From contig NYZA01000082.1 of assembly GCA_002686955.1 (NCBI GenBank), positions 1 to 8,726 on the forward strand: a DNA stretch of 8,726 nucleotides. The letters run 5' to 3'. The position numbers were made by a program, and so were the translations under genes. Each line of letters starts with the position of its first letter. Position 1 is the first letter of the stretch. This DNA is from Gemmatimonadota bacterium. GTDB lineage: Bacteria; GCA-2686955. Of this stretch, positions 376 through 5,900 are shown one piece after another. Below the pieces are notes generated by a model. It made no database searches, had not been told where the DNA came from, and saw only the letters and a list, made by a program, of their open reading frames with translations.

Positions 376-442
376 GCCATGAAGCGGGCGGTGCCGCTCA
401 CGAACCTGCGCCGCTTGGCGTTCCAATGCGAAGAACCGCGCC
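376..442. repeat. Degenerate in-phase copy of the 67-bp repeat
   Basis: Aligned without gaps to the unit at 443-509, this segment matches at 31 of 67 positions by hand count. The matches cluster in landmarks: GCC at the start, GAAGCGG at 381-387 (exactly 67 bp before the same heptamer at 448), CTTGG two bases out of register, and ATGCG back in exact phase. This suggests an older, diverged copy of the array. The overall identity alone would not be convincing, so the call rests on the exact 67-bp spacing and the shared landmarks. Confidence 0.4.
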
Positions 443-590
443 GCCGCGAAGCGGTCAACATCCCGCCGCGCTCATCACGACCCTTGGTACTCATGCGGGG
501 AGTTGTGCTGCCGCGAAGCGGCCAACATCCCGCCGCGCTCATCACGACCCTTGGTACTCATGCGGGGAGTTGTGCTGCCGCGAAGCGGCC
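443..590. repeat. 67-bp tandem direct repeat, two full copies plus a partial
   Basis: Copy 1 is 443-509 and copy 2 is 510-576. They differ at one position only (T at 455 against C at 522). A third copy begins at 577 and follows the unit for about 14 bases before diverging. Each copy opens with a short palindrome, CCGC-GAA-GCGG (444-454, 511-521, 578-588). At the copy 1/copy 2 junction the flanks extend it into a longer imperfect hairpin (GCGGGGAGTTG side against the CAACATCCCGC side). The near identity of the two copies points to a recent duplication. The compact palindromes resemble REP/BIME-type intergenic elements, but no known family is recognised. There are no spacers between copies, so this is not a CRISPR array. 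Confidence 0.9.
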
Positions 591-605
591 AGCACCAACT
601 CCCCG
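563..605. repeat. 19-bp imperfect hairpin at the end of the array
   Basis: The left arm (563-581) is CGGGGAGTTG, TGCTG, CCGC. The loop is GAA (582-584). The right arm (585-605) is GCGG, CAGCA, CAACTCCCCG with single unpaired C bases at 589 and 595. All 19 pairs are Watson-Crick. The left arm comes from repeat copy 2 and the partial copy 3; the right arm is unique sequence that complements it. It abuts the next hairpin at 606 with no gap. On the minus strand it would sit in the 3' end of the upstream gene's transcript. Confidence 0.75.
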
Positions 606-632
606 GTCATAGACTGCTCCGCAGTCTATGAC
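606..632 (-). terminator. 12-bp perfect stem-loop at the stop codon (terminator or 3' end stem)
   Basis: GTCATAGACTGC (606-617) and GCAGTCTATGAC (621-632) pair perfectly around a 3-nt loop. On the minus strand the stem begins with the last base of the TAG stop (634-632) of the secreted-protein gene. No T-tract follows, so it is not a canonical intrinsic terminator; a second GC-rich hairpin follows instead. It may act as a Rho-dependent or stem-only 3' end, or protect the mRNA. The structure itself is certain; the function is inference. Confidence 0.55.
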
Positions 633-1750
633 TATTTCAGAAGCACCATCGACCGTTCCAATCGAGTCTCCCCCGCTACGAGCCGAATCAGATAGACCCC
701 ACTGGCGAGCCGATCAGGCTTCCACCCGACAGTATGCCCACCCGCTGCATGCAGCCCCTCGGCCAGCACTGCGATCTTGTGACCCGACAGATCGTAGACC
801 GCCAGCTCGACCGGACCCGCATCGGCAAGCTCGAATCGAATCGTAGTGGAGGGGTTGAAAGGGTTCGGGCTGTTCTGGCTGAGGCTGGCCCGGGCCGGGG
901 CCGCCGGAGCGTTCGGTCGATCTCCACCGACACCGGTTCCCTGCGGGTACCACTCGTCGACATCCAGTTCCATGGTCGGGTTCGAATCGTCCATGACGAA
1001 TGAGAGGTTCGCGAAGCAGTCGCCGGGATGCGGGTGGCGCAGGTCCTGCCACATCCAGTTGGTCGCGGGATCCCAGGCGTCGCAAGGGTCACCCTGCATG
1101 TCGAAGCGCTCCGGCTTCGAGTCGGCGTGAGCCCGGTACTTGTAGCTGATCGTGCCCTTCGGCGTCGTTCCGGCTGGGAAGAAGAGAGAGATGCTCCACA
1201 TCCCGCCTCCTTGATCGACGAGCAGGTTGCTGTCATCGTCCCAATTCAGCGGGGCGGAGCCCCCCCGGATCGCCATCTGGTCGATGGTGCAGAGGTCGCA
1301 GTCATCGTTTTCCAGTACGTTGAAGGTCACTGTGACGTCCCGCTCCGTGAATCCCAGGAAGTCGTCGAAGTAGACCACTTCGAGCGCCAAGTTTTCTCCC
1401 TCGAAGAGAAAGCTGCGATTCGGTCCTCCATCCAGCTCCCAAATATCTTGCCCGCCAACCACCATGACGAATTTGTAATCGACGTCGGTGCCGGAATCGG
1501 CGTTGTCGAAGTCGGCGATCCCTTCGTAGACGCCGGGTTCGAGGCCTTCCACCAGCTGGATCCCGGTGCCCCAATCGAGAGGAGCCAGACCTCCGCGGAC
1601 GAAGACCACATCTCCTGAACCGGGATCGAACGCACCGATATCCTCTTGGACCGACATGTCGACCTGGAAGAGGACGGCCGATGTGTCCGCGGCGGCAAGG
1701 GTAGCGCTCATGAGCGCAAGGGCAGTGGCTACAACCAGCAGGTTCTTCAT
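632..1750 (-). CDS. Secreted protein with two starch-binding-like domains and a C-terminal sorting domain
   Basis: The product is 372 residues. It opens with a signal peptide (MKNLLVVATALAL..., likely cut near residue 20 after Ala-Ala). Two related beta domains follow: about 26-135 (VLFQVDMS, then RGGLAPLDWG) and about 138-290 (VTVTFNV, then RGGSAPLNWD, later ISYKYRA). Their shared pattern resembles CBM20-like starch-binding folds seen in FCB exported proteins. The second domain has four Cys (151, 154, 223, 245), including CDLC, suggesting disulfides or a metal site. Residues 288-372 form a FlgD-like/type IX type A sorting domain: NSPNPFNPSTTIRF, then VYDLSGHKIAVL and GVYLIRLVAG. I chose the ATG at 1750 because it begins the signal peptide and has AGGA 9 nt upstream; the longer reading from 1834 would start inside a hairpin. 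No catalytic motif is visible. The likely role is a surface-attached or released carbohydrate-binding protein. Confidence 0.85.
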   Translation of the reverse strand: MKNLLVVATALALMSATLAAADTSAVLFQVDMSVQEDIGAFDPGSGDVVFVRGGLAPLDWGTGIQLVEGLEPGVYEGIADFDNADSGTDVDYKFVMVVGGQDIWELDGGPNRSFLFEGENLALEVVYFDDFLGFTERDVTVTFNVLENDDCDLCTIDQMAIRGGSAPLNWDDDSNLLVDQGGGMWSISLFFPAGTTPKGTISYKYRAHADSKPERFDMQGDPCDAWDPATNWMWQDLRHPHPGDCFANLSFVMDDSNPTMELDVDEWYPQGTGVGGDRPNAPAAPARASLSQNSPNPFNPSTTIRFELADAGPVELAVYDLSGHKIAVLAEGLHAAGGHTVGWKPDRLASGVYLIRLVAGETRLERSMVLLK

Positions 1751-1759
1751 GACAGGGTT

Positions 1760-1763
1760 TCCT
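1760..1763 (-). promoter_or_regulatory. Ribosome binding site AGGA for the gene at 1750
   Basis: AGGA on the minus strand ends 9 nt before the ATG at 1750-1748. It supports the signal-peptide start over the upstream in-frame ATG codons at 1834 and 1792. Confidence 0.5.
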
Positions 1764-1783
1764 AAAGGGTTCGCGCATGAATA

Positions 1784-1836
1784 ACTTGTCATTCTGGCGC
1801 CCAGATGTGGTGCAGATGGGATGCCAAATGACAAGT
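1784..1836 (-). promoter_or_regulatory. Imperfect hairpin in the leader between the PorV-like gene and the secreted-protein gene
   Basis: ACTTGTCATT (1784-1793) pairs perfectly with AATGACAAGT (1827-1836). After a single bulged C at 1794, TGGC (1795-1798) pairs with GCCA (1823-1826), giving a 14-bp stem. The 24-nt loop contains a further CCCA/TGGG pairing and a direct CAGATG repeat (1802, 1813). It lies 31 nt past the stop of the PorV-like gene and 33 nt before the next start. On the minus strand it is followed by TTATTC, a poor T-tract. It could end the three-gene unit, attenuate or stabilise the downstream message, or be a protein-binding inverted repeat. No clear promoter is visible in this 117-nt gap. 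Confidence 0.55.
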
Positions 1837-2938: not shown

Positions 2939-5900
2939 TTGATCACCGCGAACTTCCCGATCTGCTCGCCGTATCCAGGCGCATCGACATGGAATAGGTA
3001 GACGCCATACGCGATCTCGAGATTGTCTCGAGATCGGAGATCCCAGCTCGCGGATCCGCTCAGTTCGACTCCGCCATCATGCTTGATCGTATCCACCAAT
3101 TCCCCCCGAAGCGTGTAGATCCGAATCGAGGCTCGGGGGGGCAAATGGGTGAAGAAGAGGCGTCGTTCGCCGCGCTCGCTGCCAAAGAGCTGCTTCGGTT
3201 CGAGGCTGTTGCCCGCTACATACGGGTTCGGGACAACCTTGATTGCGTCCATGTCGAAGGTGCCGGCGCCCGACGTCGCCGTAGGCTTCACCGTTCTGAA
3301 GGTGTAGGTATCTCCATCCACACCACCCCGGAAAGGGATTGTCGTCTTGAAGCGATATGCAGCTCCGTTGCCCGGCGGCTCCCCGCCGCCCTCATTGATG
3401 GCCAAGCTCCAAGTCGGCAGCAGAGTAGAAGAGTCGGCCGGATCCGGTCGGAGCAAGATGATCTGATCCCCTGGGTCCAGCTCGTCGTCCAGATCGCCCA
3501 ACTCCCAATAGGCAAAGTGCAATTCCCCTTCGCTGCCGCCGGTGGTCTCAAGCACCTTGAAGCGTGTGTCCACCGCCGGCAGGTGTATCGATCCGAAAAT
3601 GTCGTCGATTTCGTACTCGGTGGAGCGTCCATCGATCTCGCTGCTCACGCGTAGCTCGTAGATGCCCGGCCACGCATGACCGTTGGTTCGACGGTAATTG
3701 AACACTCGCGACGACACGCCGTATGCACCCGCTACCGCGCCGGACCAACCCGACAGCGAATCGATTGTTTCCACAGCGACATCGTTTTCCAGCACCAGTC
3801 GCATTCCGGCGAAGAAATCATCGCTTGGGCCCGCCTCGACACTGGTAGAGCTGTCCACAACGACCGAATCTGCGTCGATCAATCGAACGGTGTACGATGC
3901 TGTCGCGCGAGGGTGCAGCGTGTCCGCTTCCCAGAAGCTCTGGTCCTCGAAGGTGACCTCGTAGGATCGATTCACCATTCGCGCGGGATCGACAATCTCG
4001 ACTTGCAAATCACCGGTTGCTTCCCCCTCGTGGACGAAATCGACCACGCTCGATCCAACGTACCCGGCTGCCTTTACACCAGGAGTCACAGCCACGGTAT
4101 TGTCATCGAAGATCAACGAGCCATCGTCGAGCTCCGTGATCGATTTCGTGTTCTCGGCCGGCTGTATGTTCAGCTCCACTCCTCCGTGGTCGTAGGCCAC
4201 CACGGCGTAGTAGTAGGTGCGTCCGTTGACGACGTCGGTATCTTCAATCGAGTACCGTAGACCGGTCTCTTTGCCGAGAAAGAACTGGATCCCCCGGCCC
4301 TCGATCGGTGTTTCGAAGAAACCGAACTCCCCGTTGATCAAGTCGAACTGGGCCAGAGGATCGTTGAAAGTCTTTCTGCCCTTTGCGTCGGTGATGGTGA
4401 AGCTCTCGTTGAAGAAAGGCTCGGTCGACTTGTAGATCTTGTACCCCTCGAAATCGAAACCCAGCACATCGTCGAAGCTGTTCTCCGACTCGCTTCCGTC
4501 CCAATAGAGAGTGACCTTGCCCGAGTCGGCGGTTGCCCAAACCGTGGGATTGGCTGGTGGTCGGGCGAAATTGTAGTTGTCATCATAGATCTGTTGCGCC
4601 GTGCGCTTGTTGTCGACGATGTCTTCGAAATCCTCGCCGAACACCAAGGCCATGGAAAAGCGCTGCGTCTGACCGACCTTCAGAGGGAAATAACCCGACC
4701 CGTAGATGAAGTCCCCGTCGGCCGGCTCGTCCGGCACGACCTCGAAACGCCCGGGCTGCAAGCGTTCCCAGAGACCATCATCATCGTTCATGCGTACATC
4801 CGACGGCGGCGAGAAGTAGTCGAAACTGGTCAGCCCGATTTGATCCGATTCATCTACGTCGGTTGCGTCGAAGTTTCTTTCCCCCGCGGTTGGGACTCCA
4901 TCTCCTTCGCCTTCATCGGCCGTTCCGGGAACGCCATCGGCACCGCTGTCGTGGAGCAGGGGATCCCAATCCAGATCGTTGTCGATTCCGTCGTCGCGAC
5001 GTTCATCGATCATCTCGTCGATGCGGCCATCCGCATCGTTGTCGATGTTGTCGGCGTAAGCGAGACCGATATGTTGCACGCCTTCATCGATCAAACCGTT
5101 GCCATTGTCATCGATGCCGTTGTCGGCGACCTCGCCAGAGAGCATGCCCGCGTCGATCAGCGGGCTGCCCTCTTCACCGTCACCGTCGTCGTCGATGCCG
5201 TTGAAGGGGTTGCCCGGCGATTCGAGGAAGGCGTAGCCCGCATAGCCGACTTCGATCGTCTCCGAGACCGGCACCCAGCCTTCGAAGTCGACATTGTCGT
5301 CGGAGTCCCAGGAATAGGTCATGTCGTCCTCGAGATCGAAGAACGCGAGGTCGTCGTCCGAGTCGGTTCTTCCGCCCGAGAGCGTCCCAACCACCATGCC
5401 GAAGGCGACCTTGTCATAGTCGTGAACTGAAACGTTGGTCACCTCGTAGAGCCAGAAGATGACGTCTTCGGCCAGGAAGTGGGACCACTGGAACCCGCGG
5501 ACCTTGACCAGGAGGCCGAGTCCGGCTCGACTCGGGGCGTCGGGCGAAGGCTGCCACAGCACAGTTCCGTCGTCCGCAACATTGAACTCGGCGTCATTTG
5601 CATCGTCCACATAGAAAAACGACTCCTGGTCCGCGTTTTGCACGCCGCGGCCGAAGAAGCCGTTCCAGAAGCCGTTCCATGAGGCCGGCTTGTCGGGCCA
5701 GTGCCCCGGCCAGGTGGAAGGCAGGTGGCTCATCGCCACCCCGTCCTGGTCCTCGGCCAGAAAACCGGGGATCGGTTCGAAACCCCAGAAAACGCCGCCA
5801 CCGGGGCCGTCCGAGTTTCCTCTGGGCCCGTCGCAGGTCACAACCGTATGCACCAAATCACCGACCTTGTTGACATACTCGACGCCCACCAAGGGTGTGA

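Follow-up and report, generated by a model that had tools for sequence, protein, structure and literature searches.

A family of double-hairpin elements, probably mobile and REP-like, with one-sided tandem arrays in a Gemmatimonadota genome

The locus

The window analysed here (the whole stretch of DNA, 8,726 nucleotides in length) carries on its minus strand a gene for a secreted protein with a type IX secretion C-terminal sorting domain. (TIGR04183 recognises this domain; PF18962 stays below its cut-off in the same gene.) Directly after the gene are two back-to-back hairpins, A preceding B on the minus strand, which together form a head of ~70 nt; the outermost G of hairpin A is the final base of the gene's TAG stop codon (632-634). 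Beyond the head lies a periodic array. The features are collected in Table 1.

Table 1. Features of the double-hairpin element and of the gene that it adjoins (window coordinates)
Feature	Position	Strand	Description
Secreted-protein gene with type IX secretion C-terminal sorting domain	632..1834	-	Stop codon abuts the element; TIGR04183 above cut-off, residues 323-390
Double-hairpin head, dispersed unit of the family	562..634 (563-634)	-	R1/R2 model match; 92.7 bits with R2
Hairpin A	606..632	-	12-bp perfect stem; arms 606-617 and 621-632; GGA loop 618-620
Hairpin B	563..605	-	43 nt; 19-bp stem; two unpaired G's on 5' arm (about 595, 589); TTC loop 582-584
Array unit nearest the head	510..576	-	3' arm of B, spacer, and degenerate 5' arm of next hairpin; 66/67 to next unit; lag 67 above all 200 shuffles
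Second array unit	443..509	-	TRF period 67; 66/67 to neighbour
Third, decayed unit, farthest from the head	376..442	-	31/67 in phase, p=0.0014; palindrome broken

A sequence-only reading of the window had drawn attention to the array and described it as exactly periodic, with two nearly identical units and a diverged leading copy that keeps the phase. This description holds. GAAGCGG recurs at positions 381, 448, 515, and 582, with a spacing of 67 bp each time; the two fresh units, 443-509 and 510-576, have the same base at 66 of 67 positions; and the leading copy agrees with the unit next to it at 31 of 67 positions when 17.7 are expected (p=0.0014 by shuffles), the same phase giving the best match among nearby offsets. 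TRF run on the window reports a period of 67, 2.5 copies, and a 91% match. Two details stood only in part. The CCGC-GAA-GCGG palindrome that had been placed in every unit, CCGCGAAGCGG, has three exact occurrences in the window, but the leading copy has CCATGAAGCGGG, in which the palindrome is broken. The last copy does depart after 14 identical bases, but it is no mere truncated unit: it runs into the other arm of hairpin B.

The array forms just the tail of an element that is larger and is read on the minus strand. Because a single 67-nt unit folds no better than its shuffles, while the A+B head folds far better (z of -7.6 as RNA and -9.7 as DNA against shuffles), the structured object is the head and not the unit. 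Hairpins A and B both fold as RNA and as DNA, and B does so on both strands. An intrinsic terminator (a GC-rich hairpin followed by a T run) was considered and rejected, since there is no terminator-like site in 300-750 and no T run follows A or B at the other loci of the family. A known RNA was likewise rejected, since a comparison of positions 1-2000 with Rfam gave no family above its gathering score and only chance-level miRNA matches.

Further repeats were seen in the window and elsewhere in the genome. A second inverted-repeat element (AGGGTTCGCGCAAGAATAACTT... with a matching end) lies at 1766-1854, just upstream of the sorting-domain gene, and recurs at L067 (about 1980-2180) and L149 (6983-7024); one of its occurrences is a perfect palindrome of 42 nt. 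Palindromic repeats of a third family (CGCCCAGATGTGC...GATCTGGGCGATCGGTGAG...) are found at L116 (4503), L145 (13635, minus strand), and L067 (about 2020-2160), in one place within the AGGGTTCGCGCAAGAATAACTT element. A repeat of ~59 nt, CTCTCTGCCAACATGCGTGAGACATTTTCCCATCCCGCAATTAG, follows just after the end of an ISCR-type transposase (L042, 2241-2300) and is present on at least eight contigs, including C182, C100, C22, C128, C108, C73, and C137; it is possibly the end of an IS91/ISCR element. Within the window itself, positions 95-349 encode a response-regulator receiver domain that is ended by a stop codon after about 37 of 111 profile positions, perhaps a pseudogene, and positions 5655-5679, inside the gene for a 1068-aa protein, hold two tandem copies of the 12-bp unit AGAAGCCGTTCC.

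A family of nine copies

The 67-bp unit, whose copies the earlier reading proposed to count in the genome, is not the dispersed unit. Used as a DNA query, the array matches well at one other place only, so that such a search underestimates the family. The dispersed unit is instead the two-hairpin head (563-634), which is detected by structure more than by sequence. Two further copies obtained through DNA similarity have the same A-B order and the same 35-nt register between the cores, and comparison of the first three copies shows ten pairs changed on both sides. With covariance models (R1 and R2), nine copies are found in the genome: C82 (the copy in the window), C106, C113, C194, C97, C251, C95, C121, and C249. 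The supposition that an element family and not a unique unit is present is thereby supported. The genome is a draft metagenome assembly of 4.28 Mb that is 84.5% complete (about 15% is missing); R2 was built from seven of the copies, with C251 and C121 outside its building set, and the E-values are rough, coming from a short calibration. More divergent copies may remain, because C97 was missed in the whole-genome search with R1 and was found by reading gene ends.

Among the genomes searched, R2 has matches in its own genome only, and the family is in this sense lineage-restricted. At E<=0.05 there was no match in 385 other genomes, including the sole other member of the phylum among them (the sister genome), in a wide search whose stricter filters lose weak copies and missed C121 even in its own genome. 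In addition, no copy was found by scans for the exact B-core pattern in the named genomes and viral contigs, by blastn against plasmids and phages, or with R1 over 80 loci of PorV relatives. Two other matches were set aside. One, CATGGGC...GCCCATG in G001, falls within a coding gene of repetitive sequence; the other, weak and 23 bp long, is part of a hydrolase-like reading frame where contig C105 ends, and was put down to chance.

The shape is kept and the letters are replaced

Pairwise identity among the copies is 54-81%. In the nine-copy alignment, 94.2% of the cells are standard pairs, both-side changes are present at 21 of the 31 pairs (9 of 12 in hairpin A and 12 of 19 in hairpin B), and the covariation score is 0.610, compared with 0.183 for shuffled alignments and at most 0.133 when the partners are slid. 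(The alignment was fitted to the structure, so that pair counts and covariation lean upward.) When 1.2 Mb of sequence, in large part from this genome, was scanned with a strict descriptor independent of the models, the only hits were four of the copies. Well-formed copies share the position of the two unpaired bases in B's 5' arm; the structure of C95 and C249 is poor. What is conserved is the geometry of the head, these two unpaired bases included, and the letters are swapped in matched pairs. The suggestion that the element is hairpin-based and REP-like in style is supported.

Only 7 of the 278 predicted pairs are G-U. So few G-U pairs are unusual for an RNA helix under selection, and this suggests that the constraint acts on DNA rather than on RNA.

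Arrays lie on one side of the head and carry local letters

Five of the nine copies have direct tandem copies of the 3' arm of B plus spacer. The direct-repeat lags are 67, 65, 64, 73, and 69 at C82, C106, C113, C97, and C121, respectively, each above all 200 shuffles. A weak array with a lag of 56 is seen at C249, and C194, C251, and C95 have no array downstream. The direct arrays are on the B side only, that is, downstream of the head; the upstream flanks of seven copies contain none. The farther a unit lies from the head, the lower its identity, a trend that is clearest at C82 and C97. Since each array repeats the letters of the B hairpin at its own locus, the arrays arose locally, and the earlier proposal of expansion by local duplication is sustained at five loci.

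The near-identity of the units in the window, on a short contig of a metagenome-assembled genome, might raise the suspicion of an assembly artefact. This is hardly credible, however, given that the architecture of head plus array is repeated at four other loci in other letters and with diverged units.

Sites without the element

At C194 a head of about 71 nt interrupts a gene for an IS91/ISCR-type transposase, and the paralogue of this gene at C176 is uninterrupted. The comparison indicates a loss of about 4 target bases at C194 and no target duplication, with an approximate junction, as the paralogue is only 80-81% identical. This copy, which interrupts a gene having an empty paralogue and which has no array, fits an order of events in which insertion comes first and the array later.

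The sister genome offers a second comparison. Its contig L161 (JALXCG010000693.1, Gemmatimonadetes bacterium) has the same four genes in the same order as the window (TonB receptor, 1068-aa protein, PorV, sorting-domain protein), and its sorting-domain gene ends in CTGCTCAAGTAG, after which there are no hairpins and no array. The window copy is thus absent from the orthologous site, an absence that, in a comparison with a single sister genome, could also be a loss. In addition, mobility may be old, as there are nine copies only and these are strongly diverged.

The insertion at C194, together with the unpaired bases, bears on the idea that there is no element at all and that slippage in replication and correction of quasi-palindromes, acting at unrelated places, left the copies behind. 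Such a process would account for arrays written in locus-specific letters, since hairpins like B are prone to slippage, and correction templated by one arm can yield compensatory changes. However, it would have to arrive nine times at one order and spacing of the two hairpins and at the same unpaired bases; correction would erase unpaired bases, so that their persistence speaks against simple palindrome correction; and at C194 there is an insertion into a gene. This reading is disfavoured, and we regard it as quite improbable.

Placement in the genome

The element had been described as intergenic, but this does not hold for every copy, as C194 lies inside a transposase gene. Five of the nine copies (C82, C113, C97, C249, and C121) start at a TAG stop codon. 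Given a rough 1.4% chance of such a position in intergenic DNA (an estimate from gene density), this has p ~6e-8. C251 abuts the 5' end of a tRNA-Val on the opposite strand, and C106 and C95 are in intergenic DNA. The stop-codon placement may reflect either a preference at insertion or selective retention. Four of the five stop-codon copies follow host genes with a sorting domain; a general link to such genes was considered and rejected, since the element follows, besides the window gene, only 3 of the 29 FlgD_ig genes whose stop could be read. (At C249 the preceding sorting-domain gene, L066 1431-2373, seems to be frameshifted, with its repeat-domain and FlgD_ig parts in different frames.) As a separate observation, six of the first seven copies (C113, C97, C249, C194, C106, and C95) have CAA a few nucleotides ahead of hairpin A, and the window has GAA; this is a possible target motif, although several instances are Lys codons before stops.

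The position after stop codons, four times behind sorting-domain genes, and the strong compensatory change would also be understandable if the copies were a non-mobile, structured 3'-UTR RNA of secreted-protein genes, kept by selection because it protects the mRNA or tunes termination. We consider this improbable. Copies are also located inside the transposase gene, at the 5' end of a tRNA gene on the other strand, and in intergenic DNA (C106 and C95); few FlgD_ig genes carry the element; the orthologue in the sister genome does without it; and G-U pairs are scarce.

Proposed mechanism

Taken together, these results argue that the array is part of a lineage-restricted family of double-hairpin elements, small, non-autonomous, and mobile, which are REP-like, are probably mobilised in trans, and seed tandem duplications; we assign this interpretation a probability of about 0.6. 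Both the enzyme and any effect on expression are inferences. A transposase supplied in trans, in all likelihood one of the HUH class, as for REPs, would recognise the head in its folded, single-stranded form. After insertion, hairpin B would seed tandem duplication by slippage or strand transfer, and the distal units would then decay, since selection would act on the head-proximal hairpin only. Copies that abut a stop codon would become 3'-UTR hairpins, which, as is reported for stop-proximal REPs of E. coli, may act on translation termination or on the stability of the mRNA 3' end.

A bolder version, which is rather unlikely and is offered tentatively, is that of a mobile hairpin recognised by shape almost without regard to sequence. 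Its arms would be rewritten in concert around fixed unpaired bases, it would settle at stop codons, and each copy would grow a tandem tail of its own, specific to the locus. Given the few G-U intermediates, the concerted rewriting of the arms might perhaps occur by DNA copying templated by one arm.

How small palindromic repeats spread and why they cluster at gene ends is still an open question. The present family comprises, in a single genome, nine copies in which compensatory change is extreme, together with an empty site and arrays that differ in age by degrees. The family separates the structure that must stay from the sequence that is free to vary, and it constitutes a defined set of substrates with which to find the enzyme that reads it.

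Comparison with known systems

Small palindromic non-autonomous repeats, some of them inside genes, include the Rickettsia palindromic elements (RPE), NEMIS, and RUP. No sequence relation to the present family is seen in them, and to our knowledge no double head with a one-sided array is found among small dispersed repeats of this type.

The attC sites of integrons are similar to the family in that structure is kept with free sequence, that two extrahelical bases lie on one arm, that the position is right after stop codons, and that short arrays occur. In attC sites the R boxes place AAC in the 5' arm of the folded strand and GTT in the 3' arm; in the copies these triplets either do not occur or come in the wrong order (GTT..AAC, CTT..AAG, or ATT..AAT). 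In addition, there is no cassette array, the host genes being in a normal order common to the sister genome. That the copies are attC-type recombination sites is therefore very unlikely.

IS200/IS605 elements and their miniature derivatives also have palindromic ends in which hairpins carry unpaired bases, and the insertion without target duplication would fit such elements. In contrast to these, no target tetranucleotide or guide pairing has been established for the family, and the genome's IS200-type TnpA is broken and has no A/B hairpins around it. This TnpA is also the sole PF01797 match (17.5 bits, compared with a cut-off of 80 for the RAYT model); a RAYT-type transposase, which the earlier reading proposed to look for, was not found in this 84.5% complete assembly.

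Features are also shared with REP, BIME, and REPIN sequences (PMC8266576, PMC3116915, PMC3733652), which are likewise short and imperfectly palindromic, in some cases with an irregular stem, are mostly extragenic, often just after genes, can form tandem clusters, and are believed to be moved in trans in the form of folded single-stranded DNA. REPs span about 20-50 nt, and the palindromes of one group have a stem irregularity (PMC8266576); hairpin B, with its 43 nt and two unpaired G's, is of this kind. Published work supports recognition by TnpAREP of a foot motif and a bulge on folded single-stranded DNA (PMC8266576), REPs form tandem clusters (PMC3116915), and REPs within 15 nt of a stop codon affect translation (summarised in PMC12306157). 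The differences are as follows. REPs have an unpaired GTAG or CGTC tag at the foot of the hairpin (PMC3733652), whereas most copies here do not: GTAG is present in C113, C249, and C121 and ATAG in C82 and C97, in every case from the stop codon, and neither GTAG nor CGTC is found directly at the foot in C106, C194, C251, or C95. REPs have a high extragenic copy number, whereas nine very diverged copies of this family, one of them inside a transposase gene, were found in the 84.5% complete genome. No intact RAYT was found there. Finally, BIMEs and REPINs are inverted pairs, whereas A and B are different palindromes in a fixed order and the downstream copies of B are direct repeats. Because most copies lack the tag, the copies are few, and they are not paired in inverted orientation, the family is not filed as REP, although it has the irregular hairpin; it may still work like one.
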